From positions 186,001 through 250,000 of the forward strand of contig JAHDGF010000002.1 in NCBI GenBank assembly GCA_020627785.1: a DNA stretch of 64,000 bases, written 5' to 3'. This DNA comes from Saprospiraceae bacterium. Its GTDB lineage: Bacteria > Bacteroidota > Bacteroidia > Chitinophagales > Saprospiraceae. The translations under genes and the position numbers were made by a program. Position 1 is the stretch's first letter. Every line of letters starts with the position of its first letter. Under the pieces are notes generated by a model. The model saw only the letters and a list, made by a program, of their open reading frames with translations, had not been told where the DNA came from and searched no databases. Positions 15,417-29,225 of the stretch are shown here, one piece after another.

Positions 15417-16859
15417 ATGGCTTCTAGCTTTGGCAAGAACATAATCTTTCTTCTTTTCGTCAACTTGTTGATCAAACCCTTATACATTTTTGGGATTGAG
15501 ACGCAGGCGCAGAATATGTTAGGTCCGCAGACCTGGGGTATTTATTTTGGCTTATTCAATTTCTGCTTTCTGTTCCAAATAATTTTGGACCCAGGAATTC
15601 ATAACCAAAATACTAAATGGGTAGCCGAAAACCGAGGCAGTCTCCAAAGGCGAATCGGACAAACAATAGCGCTTAAACTATTGCTTGGGCTATTCTTCTT
15701 AGCCTTAATGTCCATTGCCGCTTTTTTTATAGGATATCCCCTGGAATATTTTAGAGTGCTTTTATTTGTTGGGTTGAATTTTTTCCTCTCGTCACTCTAT
15801 GTTTTTCTGAAAAGTCATTTCCCTGCCATGGGGGAATATCAAAAAGAAACCTTTTACTCAATCTTAGATAAGGTCCTATTATTAATATTACTAGGCTACC
15901 AGATTTACATACTTCAACGGCTAGATCTGATGGGCTTTATCTATTCAATCACGATTGCCAATTTTATGGCTGTCGTCATCGCATATTTAGGTTTGACCAG
16001 CTTTAGCCCCGTCTATCTGAGATTTTCAATTTCTGAAGCATCAGAGCTTTTAAGCAAAAGTTTTGGATTTGCCTTGGTAGGTTTATTTATGAGCATGTAT
16101 AATAGGCTAGATGGAGTAATGCTTGAACGCATGTTAGATGATGGAGGGTATTCAGCGGGAGTATATGCAGCAGGATATAGAATACTGGATGCGAGTAATA
16201 TGTTTGCTTTGTTATTTGCAAGTTTACTTTTACCAATGTTTGCACACCAACTCATCCGAAAAGATGAAATTCATAACTTGGTTTCTCAAGCTTCTAGAAT
16301 GATGCTAGCGATTATCTCAGGTGTCGTCCTTTGCGGGTTTTTCTATGCAGAGGAAATAATGGATTTGCTCTACACGGATTACACCGTAGAATATAGTCAG
16401 ACCTTTAAGATATTGATCCTAAGTTTTATAGGGGTAGGCCTTTCTTACGTCTACGGAACGCTAATCACAGCTAGTGGTAAACTATTTTATTTTAACTGCC
16501 TTTTGTTTGCGGGAATCCTTTTAAACGTTACCTTAAATTATCTCTGGATACCGTCACAAACGACCATTGGAGCAGCAAAAGCTACACTCATCACCCAGCT
16601 ATTCGTAATGCTTGGCCAATTGGTCTTAGTTTTGAAGCAATTTGGCTTTAAATACAACCTACGGACAAGCGTACAGACCTTATTATTCATAGGAATAGCC
16701 ATTACAAGTGCCTATCTTTTGCAACAATTAGAGTTCTTTTGGCCGATAAGGCTAATTCTTACTGGATTTATCCTTATTCTCGCATCATTTTTGCTGGGAT
16801 TGCTACGTTTAGATACTTTCTTTGGTAGCCAATCAGAGGAAAACAAAAACCATACTTGA
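15417..16859 (+). CDS. Oligosaccharide flippase family protein (Wzx-like)
   Basis: The 480-residue, strongly hydrophobic protein has about 12-14 predicted membrane helices and the layout of the MATE/MOP superfamily polysaccharide exporters. It would flip lipid-linked sugar repeat units across the inner membrane. Text near residue 215 (FGFALVGLFMSMYNRLDGVML) matches the typical second-half start in this family. First gene of the polysaccharide locus; its stop overlaps the possible TTG start of the Wzz-like gene. A second flippase is encoded 4 kb downstream, so the two probably serve different substrates or one is accessory. Confidence 0.85.
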   Translation: MASSFGKNIIFLLFVNLLIKPLYIFGIETQAQNMLGPQTWGIYFGLFNFCFLFQIILDPGIHNQNTKWVAENRGSLQRRIGQTIALKLLLGLFFLALMSIAAFFIGYPLEYFRVLLFVGLNFFLSSLYVFLKSHFPAMGEYQKETFYSILDKVLLLILLGYQIYILQRLDLMGFIYSITIANFMAVVIAYLGLTSFSPVYLRFSISEASELLSKSFGFALVGLFMSMYNRLDGVMLERMLDDGGYSAGVYAAGYRILDASNMFALLFASLLLPMFAHQLIRKDEIHNLVSQASRMMLAIISGVVLCGFFYAEEIMDLLYTDYTVEYSQTFKILILSFIGVGLSYVYGTLITASGKLFYFNCLLFAGILLNVTLNYLWIPSQTTIGAAKATLITQLFVMLGQLVLVLKQFGFKYNLRTSVQTLLFIGIAITSAYLLQQLEFFWPIRLILTGFILILASFLLGLLRLDTFFGSQSEENKNHT

Positions 16860-16873
16860 CAACATTCAAACCG

Positions 16874-17980
16874 ATGAACCAAAACGAGAATCTTTTAGAT
16901 CTTGTCAATGCCATATACCGATGGCGGAAACCAATAATTCTAAGTTGCTTTCTAGCAGCAGTGCTATCTGCAGGGGTTTCATTATTGTTACCCAACTACT
17001 ATAAATCCAAAACAGTCTTTTATGCTGCAAGTCCAGAATTGGCCAATCCAATGCCTACCGGTCTGAGCAATAGCGAAAGAGACATATACGGAACAGATAC
17101 AGATTTAGATAGACTATTTTCAATCGCCAATTCTTCCGAGGTGGTGGATTACCTAATTGATACTTTTCAATTGTATGATAGATATGAGATAGACCCCAAC
17201 GATGAAAAAGCTGGGTATAAGGTGCGATTGAAACTTGAGAAAATGTACCATACTGAAAAGAATAAGTATGATGCCTTAGAACTTTCATTTGAAGATAAAG
17301 ATCCAGTCGTTGCGGCCAATATTGCACGAGCTGCAAGAATGAAAATTGAAGAGGTTGGCCAAAAAATAATTAAGAATAGTCAACTCAATTTGTTGAATAG
17401 TTACCAAGCAGCAATAACCGTAAAGGAAACCAATCAACAACAACTTATTAGTAAGTTAAAAGAGCTGAAGAACAAGTATAAGATATATAACTCCACAGCC
17501 AAAGGGGAAACCTTAGGTGCAGAACTTACAAGCATCAATGGTCGGTTTATGAATGCTAAATCTAAACTTGAAATTTTCAAACAAAAAGAAGGTTTCCAAG
17601 ATTCTGTAATTGTCATGGAAGCCAAAGTAGCTGGACTTAAGAGTCAATTGGCACTTATTCAAAAAGAAGCAGATAACTATTCTGAAGGTTCGGGCGATGT
17701 TGAAAAATTGGGAATGGAGATGAAAGAGGTGGGTGAACAACTGGCTTTAGATAAAGAAAGTTATAAGCAATTGAAAGCTTCTTATGAAACTCCATTTACT
17801 GCACTCCATTTGGTTCAAGAAGCGGAGCCTCCGCATATAAAGTCGAGACCAGTACGATCACTTATTGTAGTAGCTACAACTGCAGTTACATTTTTTATGT
17901 CGCTTCTTTGGGTAATCTTTATGAATCAGTATCGAGATGTAAATTGGAAAAAGGTATTTTCTGATGAGCCAAGGCACTAG
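16874..17980 (+). CDS. Wzz-type polysaccharide chain-length regulator
   Basis: The protein has a membrane helix at about residues 21-41, a long coiled-coil periplasmic part, and a second helix near the C-terminus (about 324-346), the Wzz/PCP layout. The C-terminal cytosolic tail is short, so there is no fused tyrosine autokinase. I chose the ATG at 16874 (MNQNENLLDLVNAIYRWRKP); a TTG at 16856 would add six residues. It would control the length of polymer made by the neighbouring polymerase. Its end overlaps the next gene by 17 bp. Confidence 0.83.
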   Translation: MNQNENLLDLVNAIYRWRKPIILSCFLAAVLSAGVSLLLPNYYKSKTVFYAASPELANPMPTGLSNSERDIYGTDTDLDRLFSIANSSEVVDYLIDTFQLYDRYEIDPNDEKAGYKVRLKLEKMYHTEKNKYDALELSFEDKDPVVAANIARAARMKIEEVGQKIIKNSQLNLLNSYQAAITVKETNQQQLISKLKELKNKYKIYNSTAKGETLGAELTSINGRFMNAKSKLEIFKQKEGFQDSVIVMEAKVAGLKSQLALIQKEADNYSEGSGDVEKLGMEMKEVGEQLALDKESYKQLKASYETPFTALHLVQEAEPPHIKSRPVRSLIVVATTAVTFFMSLLWVIFMNQYRDVNWKKVFSDEPRH

Positions 17981-19403
17981 TCTTTCTTCAGACAATATTA
18001 GAGTCTATGGTAGCTTGATGTTTCTAACCATCGCTTGCTGCATATTAGCGTCTATTACCAATGAGTTTTTTTTGTTATTGGCACCTTTTGCCCTTGTAGG
18101 ATTAGCTCTGACCATTGTTGATTATAAGAATATCTTTTATGGTTTTTTTCTACTCATTCCATTTTCAGTAGAACTATATTTGCCAGGAGGCTTAGGAACA
18201 GACCTTCCTTCCGAACCAATGATGTGGCTTTTGTTGATTGTCACATTTTTCGTTTTTGTCTGGAACGCAAAAAGTATCCCTCAAAAGTTATTAACAAATA
18301 AGGTCAGCCTGATAATTATTCTTCAGTTAATCTGGATTTTAATTACCAGTTTAAATTCTACCTTTCCAATTGTTTCTTTTAAATTTTTTCTCGCAAAGCT
18401 CTGGTATGTAATCCCTTTCTTTTTTCTTCCTCTATTGATTATTAAGAAGACAAATCAACTTGAGTTGATTTTTAAGTTGTTCACTTTTAGTACAGTGATT
18501 GCACTTACTTATGTAATGATTAGACATGCCGGATTAGGGTTTTCATTTGCAGAAATAAATACAGCCGTTAGACCTATATTTAGAAATCATGTGAATTATG
18601 CAGCGATGCTAGTTATGATTGTTCCATTCATTTGGGCGCTTGCGCAAATAAAAGGATCAAAAAAATATTGGGCAGTTCTTTTTTATATTCTACTGGGTAT
18701 TTATTTGACCTATACTCGAGCAGCTTATGGTGTTATATTTTTGTGCATTCCAATGTATTTTATTATAAAATTTCAATTGGTGCGTTGGGTAACACCAGTT
18801 GCAGTAGTTGGTGTCTTAGCCCTTGTTCTAACCTTGGTTCGAGGAAATGAATATTTAGAACTTGCGCCGGACTATGAAAGAACAATAACCCATAAGAAAT
18901 TTAACAATCTTATCGAGGCAACTTATAAAATGGAAGACATCTCAACCATGGAACGTCTCCACCGCTGGGTTGCTGGCTTCCAAATGCTTGATGATCATCC
19001 AGTATTAGGATTTGGGCCTGCTACGTTTTTTAATAATTACCAATCGCACACAGTTTCAAGTTTTAAAACCTACGTGAGTGATAATCCTGAAAAATCAGGA
19101 ATTCATAATTATTATTTGATGACCTTAGTAGAGCAAGGCTTTGTTGGTCTTCTCCTTCTTATAGCCCTATTTTTAGTGCCAATGCTGATTGCTGAAAAAA
19201 CATATCACCAATATCGTGGGACAGAACATGGGTACTGGATTATGGCAAGTATATTAAGTTACTTTTGCTTAATAGTATTGGTTACCATAAACGATCTGCT
19301 TGAAGTTGATAAGGTTGGCCCGCTTTTTTATTTCTGCGCAAGTATTCTAGTTCTTTATAGCCTTAATTTATTAGGAAACAACAATCAAATGATTAATAGG
19401 TGA
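17964..19403 (+). CDS. O-antigen ligase/polymerase family protein (Wzy/WaaL)
   Basis: The 479-residue protein has about 12 membrane helices. The large periplasmic loop with HRWVAGFQMLDDHPVLGFGP and IHNYYLMTLVEQGFVGLLL is the signature of the Wzy_C family (O-antigen ligases and polymerases). It either polymerises repeat units or transfers the chain to an acceptor; sequence alone does not separate these. It overlaps the Wzz-like gene by 17 bp, which favours a polymerase-regulator pair. Confidence 0.85.
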   Translation: MSQGTSLSSDNIRVYGSLMFLTIACCILASITNEFFLLLAPFALVGLALTIVDYKNIFYGFFLLIPFSVELYLPGGLGTDLPSEPMMWLLLIVTFFVFVWNAKSIPQKLLTNKVSLIIILQLIWILITSLNSTFPIVSFKFFLAKLWYVIPFFFLPLLIIKKTNQLELIFKLFTFSTVIALTYVMIRHAGLGFSFAEINTAVRPIFRNHVNYAAMLVMIVPFIWALAQIKGSKKYWAVLFYILLGIYLTYTRAAYGVIFLCIPMYFIIKFQLVRWVTPVAVVGVLALVLTLVRGNEYLELAPDYERTITHKKFNNLIEATYKMEDISTMERLHRWVAGFQMLDDHPVLGFGPATFFNNYQSHTVSSFKTYVSDNPEKSGIHNYYLMTLVEQGFVGLLLLIALFLVPMLIAEKTYHQYRGTEHGYWIMASILSYFCLIVLVTINDLLEVDKVGPLFYFCASILVLYSLNLLGNNNQMINR

Positions 19404-19465: not shown

Positions 19466-19526
19466 CATTAATTGCAACTGATACGATACCTCAACATCCT
19501 TGATTACATTAATTGAATTAAGGATT

Positions 19527-20675
19527 ATGAAAATTTTAGCGATCGACGATCAACCGTTGACTCTTATTGCTATTGCTCACAAATTAGAAGGCGCTGGATA
19601 TGAACTTATTACCTGTAATGATGGTGAAAGTGGTATTTCTGTTTTCAATGAAATAAATCCAGATCTAGTGATTTTGGATCTCAACATGCCAAAGAAAAAT
19701 GGCTTTGTGGTGCTTGATCACATTCGGAATTTTCGTAAAAGCAATACTCCTGTAATGGTTATGTCTGGTGAAGAGGATGAAGAAACTATTGTAAGTGCTT
19801 TCCAATCAGGTGCTGATGAATATATTCAAAAACCAGTAGGTCTTAACGAGCTTTTAATTCGCACCAACAAATTAATGCAAAAACCTTTTAAGGGAACCAC
19901 AGATCACATTTCTTCTGGCGAATCAAAACAGATTCAAAAAAATATAGTCGGCGTGATAATTCCATGTTACAACGAAGAAGAAAGACTACAGACAGATACC
20001 TTTAAAAAGTTTGTAAGTCAGAATCTTGGTTATCATTTATGCTTTGTGAATGATGGTAGCAAGGATAAAACTTTAGAGGTACTAAAGGAAATGGCCAAAG
20101 GTAGAGAGGATTATGTTACCGTCTACGATTGTGCAAAGAATGGTGGAAAAGCTGAAGCGGTTAGACAAGGGACCTTACACATGCTCAAAGATCCACAATT
20201 AGATTTTGTTGGTTATTTAGACGCAGACCTATCAACGAATTTTCAAGATTTTGATGACCTAGTAAAAACCATTTCTAATTCCGATTTTCAAATAGTAGGA
20301 GGAAGCCGAATAAGTAGAATGGGTGCAGATATCACCAAAGCCGGATCAAGGGCGATTATCAGCAAAACAATAAATATGATTATCCGGAAAATACTTGGGA
20401 TGTCTTTCCAAGATACTCAGTGCGGTGCGAAGGTGATGAGAAGAGAAGTAGCGGAGCAAGTTTTTCAGAAAAAGTTTTTAACCAGTTGGTTATTTGATGT
20501 TGAGATTTTCATGAGAATGAAGAAAATTTATGGCTCTCAAAAGGCTCAAAAATTAATTTGTGAACAGCCATTAAAAAGATGGGTTCACGAGGATGGGTCT
20601 AAATTATCAATGTCTGATTCATTTAAAATTCTAGGACAATTATTTCAAATTTCTTTTGCCTACAAAGGGAAATAA
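19527..20675 (+). CDS. Response-regulator receiver fused to GT2 glycosyltransferase
   Basis: The 382-residue protein begins with a complete receiver domain (residues 1-120): acidic pair Asp7-Asp8, phospho-acceptor Asp51 in VILDLNMP, Ser80 and Lys102 in the conserved switch positions. A short linker leads to a GT-A glycosyltransferase of the dolichyl-phosphate-sugar synthase-like GT2 type (from about residue 141: VGVIIPCYNEEERL; FVNDGSKDKT; DAD at 232-234; GGSRISR; DTQCGAKVM). No membrane helix is seen. I chose the ATG at 19527; an upstream TTG at 19500 would add nine unconserved residues. All phosphorylation residues are present, so sugar transfer may be controlled by a histidine kinase, none of which is encoded nearby. 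It lies 17 bp before a STAS gene. Confidence 0.9.
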   Translation: MKILAIDDQPLTLIAIAHKLEGAGYELITCNDGESGISVFNEINPDLVILDLNMPKKNGFVVLDHIRNFRKSNTPVMVMSGEEDEETIVSAFQSGADEYIQKPVGLNELLIRTNKLMQKPFKGTTDHISSGESKQIQKNIVGVIIPCYNEEERLQTDTFKKFVSQNLGYHLCFVNDGSKDKTLEVLKEMAKGREDYVTVYDCAKNGGKAEAVRQGTLHMLKDPQLDFVGYLDADLSTNFQDFDDLVKTISNSDFQIVGGSRISRMGADITKAGSRAIISKTINMIIRKILGMSFQDTQCGAKVMRREVAEQVFQKKFLTSWLFDVEIFMRMKKIYGSQKAQKLICEQPLKRWVHEDGSKLSMSDSFKILGQLFQISFAYKGK

Positions 20676-20692
20676 TATTAAAAAATATCAAA

Positions 20693-21019
20693 GTGAAAAA
20701 TCTAAAAGTAGAGTTTAAAAACATCGCTTCAACAGAAGCAAAAAAAGTTATCCTTGCAGGAAACTTGACATCTATGGATGCCATCGAATTTAAAAAATCG
20801 CTTTTAAATAAAATGCAAGATGAAGCGAAGGACTATTTTATTGATATATCCAACATTGAAGCAATTGACGTAACAGGCGTAAATGCTTTAGCTATGGCAC
20901 ACAAAAAAGCTGAACGAGCTGGTTTTAAGACAATAATTTTAAGTTCAGTAGAGAATCCATCAGATGAATTTTTACATCTCACAAAATTTAAAAATATCCT
21001 AAACTTTAAAAAAGCCTAA
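20693..21019 (+). CDS. STAS-domain protein (anti-sigma factor antagonist-like)
   Basis: The 108-residue protein is a lone STAS domain. The usual DSSG phosphorylation motif appears as DVTG (in IEAIDVTGVNALAMAH), so Thr stands at the phospho-acceptor position. Family members are switched by kinase/phosphatase pairs and bind partners only in one state. The start is GTG at 20693, 17 bp after the receiver-glycosyltransferase gene and 7 bp before the second flippase gene, so it is clearly in the polysaccharide operon. No anti-sigma kinase or PP2C gene is in the window. Its partner is unknown. Confidence 0.85.
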   Translation: MKNLKVEFKNIASTEAKKVILAGNLTSMDAIEFKKSLLNKMQDEAKDYFIDISNIEAIDVTGVNALAMAHKKAERAGFKTIILSSVENPSDEFLHLTKFKNILNFKKA

Positions 21020-21026
21020 CTCAATT

Positions 21027-22295
21027 ATGAGTGCTTTTTTAAAAAATAAATTTAAAACCCTAGGTGATGGCAGCTTTCTTTTTGTTGCAACTTTATTTGT
21101 AAACATTGGAAACTATGGTCTAAACCTCATCTTGGGAAGATGGTTGGGTCCTGAAGGATTTGCGGAAGCGAATTTATTAGCCACCCTTGTTATGGTCCTT
21201 TCATTCATTGCTATGGGCCTTCAATTAACCACGGCTAAGTTTATCGCAGAAGAGGAAACTTCCTCTATTCAGCATTTAAAGAAAAGCCTCTTTTTTATAT
21301 CCATTGCCATTGCCTTGTTTCTAATAATGGTTTCTCCTTGGGTAGGCGTTTTCTTACAATTTGAAAGCACTTATCCTTTGATAATTCTATTTATTGGAAT
21401 TCCTTTTTACTTCCAGATGAGTGTTTCCAGAGGATTTTATCAAGGCACTAAAAATTTTAAAAAATTAGCGTGGACCTATATCATAGAGATGGTCGCTCGA
21501 CTGATAATTACAATTGTATTAATCGGTTTATTTATTGATAAAGGAGTCAATTCAGAAATTATCGCTTTTGCATTTTTAGCCTCTTTTATTTTCTGTGATC
21601 TTTATGCAAGATTTAAGGTAAAGGGTTCATCAAATAATCCTCAAAGGTTTAAAAAAATTGCCTCCTTTTTAGCTGTTATAGCAATTTATGAACTAAGCCA
21701 AATCCTAATAAATAACAGCGATGTTATTTTGGTTAAGCACTTATTTCCTGCCTATGAGTCTGGGCTTTATGCTTCTGTGGCTCTCTTGGGCAGAGCAGTT
21801 TTCTTTGCCACCTGGACTGTGGTAACCATACTGTTTCCGATGGTCATAGAAAAAGAAAGAAAAGGAGAACCACACCTTAAATTATTTTGGAATGCTTTAA
21901 TGATCGTTGCTGGAATTGGTGCATGCATGGTTCTTGGAGCTTGGCTACTTGGACCTCAAGTGATGAATATCGCCTTTGGACAAGAATACGCTTCGATGTC
22001 AGAATTCTTATGGATTTATGCTTTGCTTACTTGCTTATTCGCTTGCGCAAATGTATTTGTCTACTATAACATGTCCTTAGAAAATTATATACCTGTTTTG
22101 ATTTCAATCATCATAGGCGTTTTACAAATCATTTTTATAAGCCTTTATCATAATTCCATCAAACAAGTATTACTTGTTCAAGTTTGTCTAATGACTCTTA
22201 TGCTCATAAGTATGATTTTTTATCAGATCTATAAAATTAACACGGAACAACATAGTACAGACCTTAGTTTGAAAAAGGCCTCTGTCAATCTTTAA
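21027..22295 (+). CDS. Second flippase (lipopolysaccharide biosynthesis/MOP family)
   Basis: The 422-residue protein has about 12 membrane helices and MOP-superfamily text near the N-terminus (GNYGLNLILGRWLGPEGFAE), typical of Wzx-like exporters. The central ISRGF-type motif (SVSRGFYQGTKNF) is also family-like. It starts 7 bp after the STAS gene and ends 10 bp before the GT4 gene. Together with the flippase at 15417 it makes two in one locus. Confidence 0.85.
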   Translation: MSAFLKNKFKTLGDGSFLFVATLFVNIGNYGLNLILGRWLGPEGFAEANLLATLVMVLSFIAMGLQLTTAKFIAEEETSSIQHLKKSLFFISIAIALFLIMVSPWVGVFLQFESTYPLIILFIGIPFYFQMSVSRGFYQGTKNFKKLAWTYIIEMVARLIITIVLIGLFIDKGVNSEIIAFAFLASFIFCDLYARFKVKGSSNNPQRFKKIASFLAVIAIYELSQILINNSDVILVKHLFPAYESGLYASVALLGRAVFFATWTVVTILFPMVIEKERKGEPHLKLFWNALMIVAGIGACMVLGAWLLGPQVMNIAFGQEYASMSEFLWIYALLTCLFACANVFVYYNMSLENYIPVLISIIIGVLQIIFISLYHNSIKQVLLVQVCLMTLMLISMIFYQIYKINTEQHSTDLSLKKASVNL

Positions 22296-22305
22296 AATAA
22301 AGAAA

Positions 22306-23550
22306 ATGAAACTAGCAATTGTCAGCCCTTATCCTCCTAGCAAAGGAACACTAAATGAATATGCTTTTCACTTTGTGCAGAACTTCAAATTAAAAAGTGA
22401 AATTGAAGAAATAATTATATTAACCGATAAAATTGATGAATCTTATCCCAAAGAAGATTCTAGCGGAAGTTGCAAAATAACCATAGATCCTTGCTGGTCA
22501 TTTAATGGACTATTTAATTTTCTAAAAATTAGATCCGCAGTAAAAAAGCATAGTGCAGATGTTGTTCTATTCAACATTCAATTTCTCTCCTTTGGCGATT
22601 CTAAAATTGCAGGAGCATTAGGGTTATTAACACCTGTTTATACCCGAATGATGGGTACACCTACCGTCAGTCTATTGCATAATATTACGGAGACGGTAGA
22701 TTATGAATCCGCAGGGATAACAAAGAACCCAATTTTAAAGTCTGTTTACAATGCCATTGGTACTATTTTAACCAAGGTTATTTTGATGTCTAATGTTCTG
22801 ACTGTTACAATGCCTAAGTATGTAAATATTCTTGAAAAGAAGTATGGTGCTAAAAATGTGGCACTTATTCCGCATGGTTCATTTGAAGTACCAGAACTAC
22901 CCAAAGAAGTTAAACAGCAGAAAAAGCAAATTATGACTTTTGGGAAATTTGGGACTTATAAGAAAGTTGAAGAAATGATCGAGGCCGTTGAAATTGTGAG
23001 AGATCGAACTGGTGAAGAAATGGAAATAGTTATTGCTGGAACTGATAATCCGAATGTAAAGGGTTATTTGAATGGCGTTAAAGAAAAGTATAGTCACGTA
23101 AAGGATCTTCATTTTACTGGCTATGTTGAAGAAGAAGACGTTCCTAGAATATTTACAGAAAGTACAGTCGTCGTTTTTCCTTATACCAGTACTACAGGCA
23201 GTTCAGGAGTATTGCACCAGGCTGGTAGCTATGGAAAAGCTGTCGTACTTCCTAATATTGGAGATTTAAAGGAATTAATAGAGGAAGAAGGATATCGTGG
23301 CGAATATTTTGAGCCAAATGACATCAATGGTTTGGCAGATGCTATTGAAATTTTAGTGGTAAATGAAGAAAGAAGAAAGGAAGTGGGTGAAGCAAATTAT
23401 GCTGCCGCAGCCTCATTACCTATGGAAGATATTGCCGATTGGTACCTTTTACACTTCGAATCACTCGTAAAATCACCAAAAAAGCCTGAGAATTCTAAGC
23501 AAATTCCTATAAATACAAGTACCTCACTTGAACCTGTGCTTATTCAATAG
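22306..23550 (+). CDS. Glycosyltransferase family 4 (GT-B fold)
   Basis: The 414-residue cytosolic enzyme starts with MKLAIVSPYPPSKGTLNEYA, the usual GT4 N-terminus. Its donor-binding half contains TFGKFGTYKKVEEMIEA, HFTGYVEEEDVP and TGSSGVLHQAGSYGKAVVLP, with a short acidic EPND motif thereafter. It would add one sugar from a nucleotide donor during repeat-unit assembly. Last gene of the polysaccharide locus. Acceptor and donor cannot be told from sequence. Confidence 0.88.
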   Translation: MKLAIVSPYPPSKGTLNEYAFHFVQNFKLKSEIEEIIILTDKIDESYPKEDSSGSCKITIDPCWSFNGLFNFLKIRSAVKKHSADVVLFNIQFLSFGDSKIAGALGLLTPVYTRMMGTPTVSLLHNITETVDYESAGITKNPILKSVYNAIGTILTKVILMSNVLTVTMPKYVNILEKKYGAKNVALIPHGSFEVPELPKEVKQQKKQIMTFGKFGTYKKVEEMIEAVEIVRDRTGEEMEIVIAGTDNPNVKGYLNGVKEKYSHVKDLHFTGYVEEEDVPRIFTESTVVVFPYTSTTGSSGVLHQAGSYGKAVVLPNIGDLKELIEEEGYRGEYFEPNDINGLADAIEILVVNEERRKEVGEANYAAAASLPMEDIADWYLLHFESLVKSPKKPENSKQIPINTSTSLEPVLIQ

Positions 23551-26171: not shown

Positions 26172-29100
26172 TTAGTTCTTTAAATTTTTGATATCGTAGG
26201 GTCCTAGCAGTTGCTCCATCTCTACTCTAAATTCTGGGTCCTTTATATCCTTGCTTAAAGCCAATACATCATCAATCCCTCTCAACGCATATTGGAAATC
26301 TTGGCGGAAACTTGATTCAAAGTCATCTTCGTCCAATGAATCATAAAAGGCCATCCTTTGTGCCAATTCATTGGCAAGTATTCTTGCGTGTTTTTTGGCA
26401 GAGTCATAATCACCAGCACCCGCTAAAATATTTAGGAATGGCGTAACGCTTTCATCATAGGTAAAGTTGAAATTTGGAAAACCCTTGAAATATTCATTGG
26501 CAAGAGCTCCTGCTTTTTCTTTATCTCCTTCTTCTAAAAAACTCTGTGCTCCACGCATCATGACAATCCTCATTGCCTGTAATTCAGCAGCATAACTATC
26601 ATCTATAAAACACTCTTCTTTATCAAAGTTACCCCATGCCCATTTGTTCATGACATTTTCATACAGCTTTTCCTTTTCTACACTACCACTTCCGTATATG
26701 CTTAGATTTCTATCACTTTTTTGATATTCTGGCACAAGTCGTAACGCCAATCCTTCCAGCTGCATAAAGTCATTCATGCCTAGCAACTTGTCATTGTTAC
26801 ACGTTACCGCAAAGTATATCTTACGATCATGAATGTTAGAACAAACTAAATCTAATACAGCAAGCTCATCCTTTGTGATGTATCCCTTCTTAGGCAGTTT
26901 CACATTGATTCTATTTACGGTCGTTGAATCTACTTGTCCGATTAAGTTGTTTTCTTGTAACCTCTTTAAATCAAGTGGAATAAATAAATTACGACTTCTC
27001 ATAATTGTCTGTCCCTGAATGTTATTCTTTGGACTTGCTATGAAATTCAACTCCGTGAATGCATTCATCGGTGTACTTAGGTCATCCCTATTTTCCGGAT
27101 TGAAGAAGAATACCTGATTCCGATTTTTACCTCGATAAGCTTCTGGTGGAATGGATAATTTGATTGGGGCAGAATCATTAACCTTGTTTCTCAATTTCTC
27201 AATATACCAATCAACAGCAATCAGACTTAAATTCACTACTCTTACATCTCTTCTAATATTCTCTACCTCTTGCGCATACCATAATGGATAAGTATCGTTA
27301 TCTCCATAGGTAAAGATTATGGCATTTTCATCTACAGAGTTTAAGAAGTTGGCTGCATAATCTCTCGAACCATAATTATTCATTCTTGAATGATCATCAA
27401 AGTTTTGAGTCCCCATTAATATCGGAGCAATCAAAACCAAAACACCACCAAGAATGGCAGCATTGTTACCACCTAATTTTAATCGATTCTGAAAGAATTG
27501 AAACAATCCCAACACACCCATTCCAATAAAAATGCAATAGGTGAAAAACGAACCAACCAGAACGTAATCTCTTTCCCTTGGTTCGTTTGGAGGTTGATTA
27601 GAATACATGATTAATCCTAACCCGGTAATTAGAAACAGGATCATTAAAATGGAGAATATGTTTTTGTTTTTTCGGAACAAAAAGAATAAACCGACCAAGC
27701 CAAATATAAGTGGTAAGAAAAAGTACTTATTATTAGCCTTATTATTTCTCATGCTGTCAGGCATATAATCCATCTCGTGTAATCTCCACTCATCGATTGG
27801 CTTAATACCACTCAACCAGTTCCCATCACTTACATCCCATGAGTAATATCCTTGAGTTCCATTTTGTTTTCCTACAAAGTTCCAATAGAAATATCTCCAG
27901 TACATCCAACCCATCTGATAGCTTAACATGAATTGCATATTGTACTTCATGCCAGGAGCACCTTTTAAGGCTTCTCCTCCATTGAGTTGTCGATACCATC
28001 GATCATGCAACTGAGGTCTTGGTCCATCAGTATGACCTACCCGCGGTAAAAAGATTTTATCCTTGTTAGCATATACATAGTCCAACTTCTCATCGACAAC
28101 AACATATTTATCACCGACTCTTCCATATCTATCCTTTTTTGTCAGATCTTTTGGCGAAGCCTTAAAGTGTGGTCCATGTAAAAGTGCTCTTTCTCCATAC
28201 TGTTCCCTGTTTAGATAGGGTAGTAACCTCATTGCATCACTCGGTACATTCATATTGATTGGAGTATCTGCATTAGCTCTTATAACGATAACACCAATGG
28301 TAGAAAAACCAATGGATACAAGAATTGCACATACGGTCAATAAGTTCAGAAAACGGTACCCTCGTTTGTGGGTAAAATAAAGTAACCCAGCGGCAACCGC
28401 AACTAAAAGAATTAAGGTCATAACCAATCCTGAGTGAATCGGTAGTCCCATGGAGTTAACGGCAAAGAGTTCAAAGTTTTTCCAAAGAGTTGGAATACCA
28501 ACAATGATAAATTTCTGAATGAAAATAATGATGGCTGATCCAGCCGCTAAAGCCATGAGTGACCCTAAGAGATTTGGATTTTCTTTCTTCTTTAAATAAT
28601 ACATTAAACCGATGGCAGGGAAAGTCAAGAGACTTAATAAGTGAACACCGATTGATAAACCACCAATATATGCCGTCAAGGCAAGCCAACGATCATTTTT
28701 ACCTTCATTTGGTTGAGTATACCATCGGGTCGCCGCCCAAAAAGTAATCGCTGTAAAAAGCGTGGACATGGCATACACCTCACCTTCCACGGCAGAGAAC
28801 CAGATGGAAGAACAAAAAGCGGTAGCTAAACCTGCAGTCAACCCAGCAAAACCCAAAGCCATGTTCTGTTCTTGACTCGTTATTTCCGATCTTCCAATCA
28901 AAATATGGTGTCCAAAAAGCATCGTTATCCTTGCCACGAAAAAGGCTGTGAATGCCGTCGCCATACTTGACATTAGATTGACAGCAAACGCTATATCCGC
29001 AGGATTATCTGAAATTACCGTTGCTATCCAAGTAAACATTCGGCCAATGATCATAAATAAAGGTGCCCCTGGTGGGTGAACTACCTCCAATTTATAAGCA

Positions 29101-29225
29101 CCTAAAATGAACTCACCACAGTCCCAAAGACTGCCTGTTCTTTCAGCTGAAAAATAATAGACGATGAGAGCAATGGCAAATACCAGCCAGCTGCTTATTT
29201 TTTTAACAGTTTTGAATGATTGCAT
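26172..29225 (-). CDS. DUF2723 membrane glycosyltransferase (TMEM260/GT117-like)
   Basis: The 1,017-residue protein has about 12 membrane helices in its first 600 residues and a soluble C-terminal half. Near the N-terminus it carries TGSLWDCGEFILGAYKLEV followed by HPPGAPLF, the conserved acidic loop of DUF2723, a GT-C fold family related to human TMEM260, an O-mannosyltransferase acting on extracellular domains. A role in O-glycosylation of exported proteins is a reasonable inference, since Bacteroidota glycosylate many periplasmic proteins. Operon order is DUF2723, rpiB, M28 peptidase. Confidence 0.88.
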   Translation of the reverse strand: MQSFKTVKKISSWLVFAIALIVYYFSAERTGSLWDCGEFILGAYKLEVVHPPGAPLFMIIGRMFTWIATVISDNPADIAFAVNLMSSMATAFTAFFVARITMLFGHHILIGRSEITSQEQNMALGFAGLTAGLATAFCSSIWFSAVEGEVYAMSTLFTAITFWAATRWYTQPNEGKNDRWLALTAYIGGLSIGVHLLSLLTFPAIGLMYYLKKKENPNLLGSLMALAAGSAIIIFIQKFIIVGIPTLWKNFELFAVNSMGLPIHSGLVMTLILLVAVAAGLLYFTHKRGYRFLNLLTVCAILVSIGFSTIGVIVIRANADTPINMNVPSDAMRLLPYLNREQYGERALLHGPHFKASPKDLTKKDRYGRVGDKYVVVDEKLDYVYANKDKIFLPRVGHTDGPRPQLHDRWYRQLNGGEALKGAPGMKYNMQFMLSYQMGWMYWRYFYWNFVGKQNGTQGYYSWDVSDGNWLSGIKPIDEWRLHEMDYMPDSMRNNKANNKYFFLPLIFGLVGLFFLFRKNKNIFSILMILFLITGLGLIMYSNQPPNEPRERDYVLVGSFFTYCIFIGMGVLGLFQFFQNRLKLGGNNAAILGGVLVLIAPILMGTQNFDDHSRMNNYGSRDYAANFLNSVDENAIIFTYGDNDTYPLWYAQEVENIRRDVRVVNLSLIAVDWYIEKLRNKVNDSAPIKLSIPPEAYRGKNRNQVFFFNPENRDDLSTPMNAFTELNFIASPKNNIQGQTIMRSRNLFIPLDLKRLQENNLIGQVDSTTVNRINVKLPKKGYITKDELAVLDLVCSNIHDRKIYFAVTCNNDKLLGMNDFMQLEGLALRLVPEYQKSDRNLSIYGSGSVEKEKLYENVMNKWAWGNFDKEECFIDDSYAAELQAMRIVMMRGAQSFLEEGDKEKAGALANEYFKGFPNFNFTYDESVTPFLNILAGAGDYDSAKKHARILANELAQRMAFYDSLDEDDFESSFRQDFQYALRGIDDVLALSKDIKDPEFRVEMEQLLGPYDIKNLKN

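Follow-up and report, generated by a model that had tools for sequence, protein, structure and literature searches.

A response-regulator receiver domain fused to an ArnC/DPM-like glycosyltransferase in a conserved glycan locus of Bacteroidota

The 64,000-nucleotide stretch of Saprospiraceae DNA analysed here, referred to as the window, encodes at 19527-20675 (+) a protein in which a response-regulator receiver (REC) domain is joined to a GT2-family glycosyltransferase. As read from the sequences, the fusion and both of its active sites are conserved among relatives, the gene lies in a conserved polysaccharide locus, and in most relatives gas sensors and histidine kinases are found at the same locus. 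We put at roughly even probability the reading that this REC-GT2 protein is the means by which a phosphorelay, driven in relatives by gas sensors, adjusts how much lipid-linked sugar reaches a GT-C enzyme. A search of the open-licence PMC literature found no description of a Bacteroidota REC-GT2 fusion or of its locus.

RESULTS

One reading frame encodes both domains

The gene is a single uninterrupted frame that runs from an ATG at 19527 to a stop at 20675 and encodes 382 amino acids. An alternative TTG start at 19500 would add 9 amino acids to the fusion; M1 is invariant among homologs. Pfam matches Response_reg to residues 3-111 (E 2e-24) and Glycos_transf_2 to residues 143-313 (E 6.3e-23). 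An AlphaFold2 model (mean pLDDT 83.9) has two folded domains, joined by a linker that is disordered at residues 121-131, where pLDDT falls below 50. The linker as a whole (residues 121-140, 19887..19946, +) has a near-constant length, a variable sequence and is partly disordered in the model. Its pairwise identity is 25%, compared with 59% for REC and 72% for the glycosyltransferase, and the spacing from KP to IPC is 40-45 residues across 52 fusions.

The receiver (PF00072, residues 1-120, 19527..19886, +) contains the acidic pocket D7/D8 (codons 19545-19550), the phospho-acceptor D51 (codon 19677-19679), S80 (19764-19766) and K102 (19830-19832), all on the + strand; the residue positions are those given in a preliminary description of this DNA. 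These five residues, together with D232 and D234 of the glycosyltransferase, are invariant in 67 of 67 full-length fusion homologs, which on average are 44% identical to the window protein in REC and 68% in GT2. In alignment A1 (43 sequences), 16 of the 120 REC columns are invariant and all five active-site columns are among them; the probability that random invariant columns would include all five is ~2e-5. The REC part of the model mostly has a pLDDT >85, and sequence and model agree on a (beta-alpha)5 receiver fold with the DD pair, phospho-Asp, Ser/Thr and Lys in place. Both sequence and fold matching put this half closest to OmpR/PhoB-type receivers. Judged by these features, the receiver is chemically competent and conserved. 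We give almost no credence to an artefactual fusion, whether by frameshift or otherwise, or to a degenerate receiver: the identical single gene occurs in dozens of independent genomes, with all five active-site residues invariant. In two Algibacter genomes an extra stand-alone receiver gene lies immediately upstream of REC-GT2 (L029:10001-10348 and L046:10001-10348); the encoded proteins have 123 amino acids and are ~42% identical to the REC of the fusion.

The glycosyltransferase half resembles ArnC and DPMS

The GT2 domain (PF00535, E 6.3e-23, residues 141-382, 19947..20672, +) has a DAD motif at residues 232-234 (20220-20228, +) and the motif DTQCGAK at residues 296-302 (+), within the same domain. 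It was previously called a DPM-like GT-A enzyme, and the label is fair: the closest PDB entries by sequence are ArnC, DPMS and GtrB, and fold comparison agrees. Both the GT-A fold and the DxD motif are present, and the domain is nearest to the polyprenyl-phosphate group. PF13641 is not its best family, scoring 28.1 bits (cut-off 27) compared with 82 bits for PF00535. A hydropathy search predicted no membrane helix in the GT2 half, the highest 19-residue value being 1.09, whereas C-terminal membrane helices are typical of ArnC, GtrB and DPMS. For this reason we name it ArnC/DPM-like and not an ArnC. From its nearest relatives and from the GT-C partner described below, we infer that the enzyme is polyprenyl-phosphate glycosyltransferase-like and that its product would be a polyprenyl-phosphate sugar.

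Distribution and origin of the fusion

The preliminary description had proposed a search for the architecture and its neighbours across Bacteroidota. That search found the one-gene fusion, with a conserved locus, in three families: in Saprospiraceae, in one Chitinophagaceae MAG and in many Flavobacteriaceae. Full-length identity of the scanned fusions to the window protein is 48-73%, and 75% for a genome of the same genus. In a sample of the phylum, 10 of 296 Bacteroidota genomes have the fusion. Several fusions of Saprospiraceae lie outside the conserved locus (L020, G004).

On a tree of the GT2 domain, 40 fusions all lie to one side of a single branch (support 99/96), a split recovered in 100% of bootstrap trees, and the GT2-only orthologs neighbour the fusion side. 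By this topology the receiver is a domain gained once, or lost once in the sister group, and it appears to have been kept functional since that single gain or single loss. GT2-only orthologs occupy the same module in a genome of the same genus (G002) and in two of the same family (G036 and G014), and no REC gene was found beside them in these three loci. Separate genes in close relatives had been named as evidence that would speak against a regulated fusion. Such GT2-only genes do exist, in the same locus; a split REC/GT2 gene pair was rejected, as the GT2-only genes have no adjoining REC. The extra REC gene of the Algibacter loci comes in addition to the fusion, not instead of it. Since the GT2-only orthologs have no partner REC, the receiver is best described as a regulatory add-on and not as half of a separable pair, a pattern to be expected if a regulatory domain was gained or lost.

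Paralogs and unusual copies were also seen. Two REC-GT2 paralogs, flanking the locus or in tandem, occur at L025, L026, L031, L036, L047, L071, L076 and L133 (G146), in Maribacter and Flavobacterium genomes. The Maribacter paralogs fall in separate clades, which suggests two sugars or two settings. One genome placed in the family of the window carries the whole sensor-plus-glycan locus in a flavobacterial-type version (L126 and L118, on G216:C32), whose fusion is 88% and whose GT-C-like protein is 84% identical to those of Flavobacteriaceae; either this copy was transferred horizontally or the contig end is misbinned or chimeric.

The fusion belongs to a conserved glycan module

The polysaccharide setting noted earlier was borne out by the genes around the fusion. 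Directly downstream, starting 17 bases past the fusion stop codon, is a gene on which the preliminary description was silent, encoding a STAS-domain protein of 108 amino acids (20693..21019, +; PF01740, E 3.2e-8). It is followed by a Wzx/MOP-family flippase-like gene (cluster 5; 21027..22295, +; PF01943, E 9.6e-16) and a GT4 glycosyltransferase (cluster 1; 22306..23550, +; PF00534, E 7.5e-20), conserved partners whose clusters occur in 48 and 51 loci, respectively. Upstream, and outside the conserved module, are a second Wzx-like flippase (15417..16859, +; PF01943, E 2.2e-15), a Wzz-like chain-length regulator (16856..17980, +; PF02706, E 3.2e-5, just under the cut-off) and a Wzy/O-antigen-ligase-like polymerase (17964..19403, +; PF04932, E 1.1e-19). 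Also outside it, 3 kb past the module and beside an M28 peptidase and RpiB, the window has a second polytopic glycosyltransferase-like gene, TMEM260-like (26172-29225, -; PF11028).

The module was defined by clustering of neighbour genes across the loci of relatives. It comprises STAS, Wzx and GT4, together with three genes of the opposite strand that encode a TIM-barrel glycosidase-like protein, an Ig-like protein and a membrane protein of ~1000 residues; a TPR/outer-membrane-type protein also belongs to it, and REC-GT2 lies at one or both ends. STAS genes in relatives likewise adjoin Wzx or the fusion, and about half of the loci have one next to Wzx. The STAS protein of the window has Val at the usual phospho-Ser position. 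A phospho-switch of the SypA/SpoIIAA type was rejected: of 32 STAS rows aligned with a reference sequence, only 3 keep the Ser. Because the STAS proteins mostly lack this serine, a Ser-phosphorylation switch on them is unlikely, and a binding role appears more plausible.

Two other gene types accompany some loci. In Winogradskyella-type genomes a GT2-like gene of ~160 amino acids follows REC-GT2 (L048:6223-6708; cluster 8, 18 loci) and resembles a truncated glycosyltransferase. A large secreted T9SS-sorted protein (DUF6923, Por secretion tail) is encoded at L033:4371-6974 and also in G161, G216 and G275. In several loci it sits between a LytTR gene and the TPR/outer-membrane gene, and it is possibly a matrix protein of the same system. 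As to the identity of the polymer, no Pel model was among the NCBIfam matches of the locus genes, and for PNAG there was a weak match of PgaA (TIGR03939) through TPRs, at 25.4 bits compared with a cut-off of 366.65.

A GT-C-like membrane protein accompanies the glycosyltransferase

The ~1000-residue membrane protein (cluster 3), which in the genome of the window lies at G000:C23:10399-13380, is without a firm Pfam family; PF10131 matched weakly in 13 of 31 members. Its structural model is of modest quality (mean pLDDT 66.6). In the VIA re-alignment the model matched STT3/OST with a Z score of up to 20.5 (365 residues, 4.2 A), AftD with 17.6, ArnT with 16.2 and PglB with 15.6, the top matches having Z 14-20 over 310-390 residues, as for a GT-C fold. 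The signal appears only in this re-alignment, where the absence of other folds proves nothing; Foldseek alone placed other folds first, mostly NTF2-like/PBP and transglutaminase, in the C-terminal half. In a check for the catalytic Asp/Glu that GT-C enzymes carry in their first periplasmic loop, D32 and H36 proved invariant in the 31 members and are possible candidates for such a role.

ArnC and ArnT are an established pair of donor synthase and GT-C enzyme, and where a polyprenyl-phosphate sugar is both made and used, an ArnC/DPM-type GT2 next to a GT-C enzyme is the classic arrangement. By analogy, REC-GT2 and the GT-C-like partner would be the maker and the user of such a sugar. The genomic pairing with a GT-C-fold protein, conserved for the window-type GT2, resembles the ArnC-ArnT pair, and the GT-A fold, the DxD motif and the nearest sequences and structures are shared with ArnC, GtrB and DPMS. 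Compared by sequence and fold, the window-type enzyme differs from these three in having an N-terminal receiver and no membrane helices.

A gas-sensor operon adjoins the module in most relatives

Beyond the TPR/outer-membrane gene, most Flavobacteriaceae have the gene order CheY-like REC, H-NOX, PAS histidine kinase, FIST, histidine kinase, Hpt and LytTR regulator. The version of Saprospiraceae consists of H-NOX, a hybrid kinase with REC and Hpt, and LytTR. The FIST protein of the operon is NosP-like. In many marine Flavobacteriaceae the sensors, kinases, Hpt and output together span ~22 kb. The proximal haem His (His104) and the YxSxR motif of H-NOX are kept in 13 of 13 sequences. A divergent H-NOX, ~28% identical, is at the same position of the locus in Flavobacterium (G275, G346).

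A search of 59 fusion-bearing genomes found H-NOX in 56 and FIST in 48, usually as a single copy each. In the phylum sample, H-NOX is present in 9 of 10 fusion genomes compared with 12 of 286 others (Fisher p 6.7e-11, uncorrected for kinship). By coordinates only, with contig identity ignored, H-NOX lies <=20 kb from the fusion locus in 41 of 47 genomes; in at least one of these (L066/G392) it is on another contig than the fusion, so that 40 is an upper bound. For eleven loci the linkage was confirmed, either by reading the genes one by one or by location on a single contig. H-NOX and the fusion were read on one stretch in G239, G161, G192, G188, G216, G275, G346 (the genome of L047) and L033, and lie on one contig in G366 (L035) and G023; in G002, H-NOX occurs together with the GT2-only enzyme. 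STAS is missing from the fusion-keeping loci of G239, G192 and G216. Sensor operons without a GT2 of the REC-GT2 type were found in G142, G088 and G005. The operon of the first of these (L156, G142:C4) reads REC, H-NOX, HK, FIST, HK, Hpt and LytTR, and two STAS genes come after it; this genome has no match to the GT2. In G036 a FIST gene beside a histidine kinase (L115:11445-13432) lies 2.5 kb from the GT2-only locus.

The genome of the window lacks a detectable sensor operon

In the window's own genome (G000) the module is in two parts, on contigs C60 and C23. The window carries the fusion, STAS, Wzx and GT4, and C23 carries the GT-C-like, Ig-like, glycosidase-like and TPR/outer-membrane genes. 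Searches of the G000 contigs, an assembly that is 90.6% complete, gave no match for H-NOX (PF07700) and found no FIST, no Hpt and no homolog close to the hybrid kinase of the same-genus G004. At that completeness, loss of the sensor operon and failure to assemble it look the same. The genome has 42 HATPase_c matches, none inside the window. The preliminary description was right that no histidine kinase is nearby, the nearest HATPase_c matches of the same contig being ~120 kb off. Its conclusion that the signal comes from an orphan kinase holds for this genome, where the kinase is unlinked and where, in view of the missing sensor operon, another kinase would have to feed the receiver. The same conclusion is wrong for most relatives, whose kinases, Hpt and H-NOX/FIST sensors are in the same locus.

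DISCUSSION

Because a GT2 encoded in a polysaccharide locus is joined, in a conserved fusion, to a chemically competent receiver, we infer, on what we regard as sound grounds, direct post-translational control of glycosyl transfer. The gene product would be a response regulator with an enzyme as its output, a soluble, membrane-associating GT2 that most likely loads undecaprenyl (polyprenyl) phosphate with a sugar taken from a nucleotide donor. In relatives, the state of the sensors, with the haem proteins H-NOX and FIST in control, would set kinase or phosphatase activity, and an NO signal may be what they read. Phosphate would then reach Asp51 directly or via Hpt, in most relatives through the kinase/Hpt relay of the same locus. 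Phosphorylation of Asp51 may raise or lower GT2 activity or change its docking, with pairing of receivers, or docking that spans the flexible linker, as the probable means. On the periplasmic side, the conserved membrane protein with the GT-C fold would consume the lipid-linked sugar and may with it build or decorate a surface polysaccharide or glycan served also by GT4, Wzx, the glycosidase and the TPR/outer-membrane protein. The LytTR regulator would form a parallel transcriptional branch.

This phosphorelay reading draws on the fusion with its invariant sites, its single origin, the pairing of GT2 with GT-C, the locus, the sensor operon and the co-occurrence of H-NOX. Against it are the missing H-NOX, FIST, Hpt and close G004-kinase homolog of G000, and the split of that locus over two contigs. 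GT2-only orthologs stand in the same locus, also with H-NOX (G002), so the receiver is not essential to the pathway. The two or three other receivers of the locus are possible main targets of the relay. The GT2 has no membrane helices, some Saprospiraceae fusions are outside the locus and the GT-C model is weak.

The receiver could instead position a GT2 that is always active, phosphorylation causing REC dimerization or docking to STAS, Wzx or GT-C at an assembly complex. A long, flexible linker of constant length would suit such a role, as would the closeness of REC to the OmpR/PhoB-type receivers, which dimerize; a soluble GT2 has to get to the membrane, and STAS adjoins the fusion in the window and Wzx in about half of the loci. 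The three fusion-keeping loci without STAS argue against it, and we consider this alternative rather unlikely. We take a similarly sceptical view of the possibility that co-localization with H-NOX and FIST is incidental, the gas operon acting only via LytTR and REC-GT2 receiving phosphate from unlinked kinases. In G002, H-NOX shares the locus with a GT2-only enzyme, the genome of the window keeps a conserved receiver without the sensor operon, and three genomes have the operon without the GT2; in most fusion genomes, however, kinases and Hpt are next to the fusion. That the receiver serves chiefly as a sink for phosphate or as a step of the relay, shaping LytTR signalling while leaving GT2 unregulated by REC, seems to us quite improbable. 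The locus does have several receivers (CheY-like, LytTR and, in the two Algibacter loci, the extra REC before the fusion) as well as Hpt, but a sink has no need of a lasting covalent link to one enzyme, kept since a single origin with both sites intact.

A more specific version of the phosphorelay reading is tentative, and we lean somewhat against it. Two haem-type sensors, H-NOX and the NosP-like FIST, would act through a single phosphorelay that ends in a receiver fused to the lipid-linked-sugar synthase of a surface glycan, a novel form of NO response in Bacteroidota that would do without c-di-GMP. In that case gas sensing might act on the enzyme to curb glycan assembly within seconds; LytTR would be the slower, transcriptional arm and STAS a third point of control.

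Receivers are known to control catalytic domains that make or break signalling molecules or phosphoesters, as in PleD, PorX and others; in the window protein the receiver is linked to a biosynthetic glycosyltransferase. REC fused to a BcsA-like GT2 (PF13641) has been described in the MTH_548-type regulators of Methanobacteriaceae, where such fusions were termed narrowly distributed (PMC5847659). Consequently the architecture class is not new; the type of GT2, the phylum and the context are. Both types join REC domain(s) to a GT2-family glycosyltransferase. The MTH_548 type is archaeal and BcsA-like, whereas the window type is from Bacteroidota, ArnC/DPM-like and set in a glycan locus with STAS, and most of its relatives, unlike the archaeal type, have H-NOX/FIST and kinases at the locus.

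The closest functional parallel is the syp system (HnoX-HahK, SypG, SypE, SypA), which also combines H-NOX and a histidine kinase with polysaccharide, response regulators and STAS. In Vibrio fischeri the NO sensor HnoX restrains the kinase HahK, whose targets regulate a polysaccharide locus (PMC12369376), and the syp locus encodes the STAS protein SypA (PMC4517449). In syp the regulators comprise a transcription factor along with a Ser kinase/phosphatase that acts on the STAS serine (PMC12369376, PMC4517449), whereas here one regulator itself bears the glycosyltransferase and the STAS serine is mostly not conserved. In the part of an account of group 1 H-NOX neighbourhoods considered here (PMC8738867), H-NOX, kinase, response regulator and FIST/NosP are found side by side; the outputs named in that part are c-di-GMP enzymes, quorum sensing and gene expression, with no mention of a glycosyltransferase. 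As far as that part goes, the operon of the relatives has the same grouping, and its output here would be a glycosyltransferase.

The link of gas or redox cues to surface polysaccharide can be tested within one gene cluster, whose carriers include culturable marine Flavobacteriaceae (Maribacter, Winogradskyella, Polaribacter and Flavobacterium). The system offers a candidate phospho-switchable lipid-sugar synthase, and G004, with the receiver, and G002, without it, are a natural pair of one genus for a clean comparison. The arrangement of these genes suggests that polysaccharide assembly may be under the control of gas sensing both at the enzyme and via gene expression.
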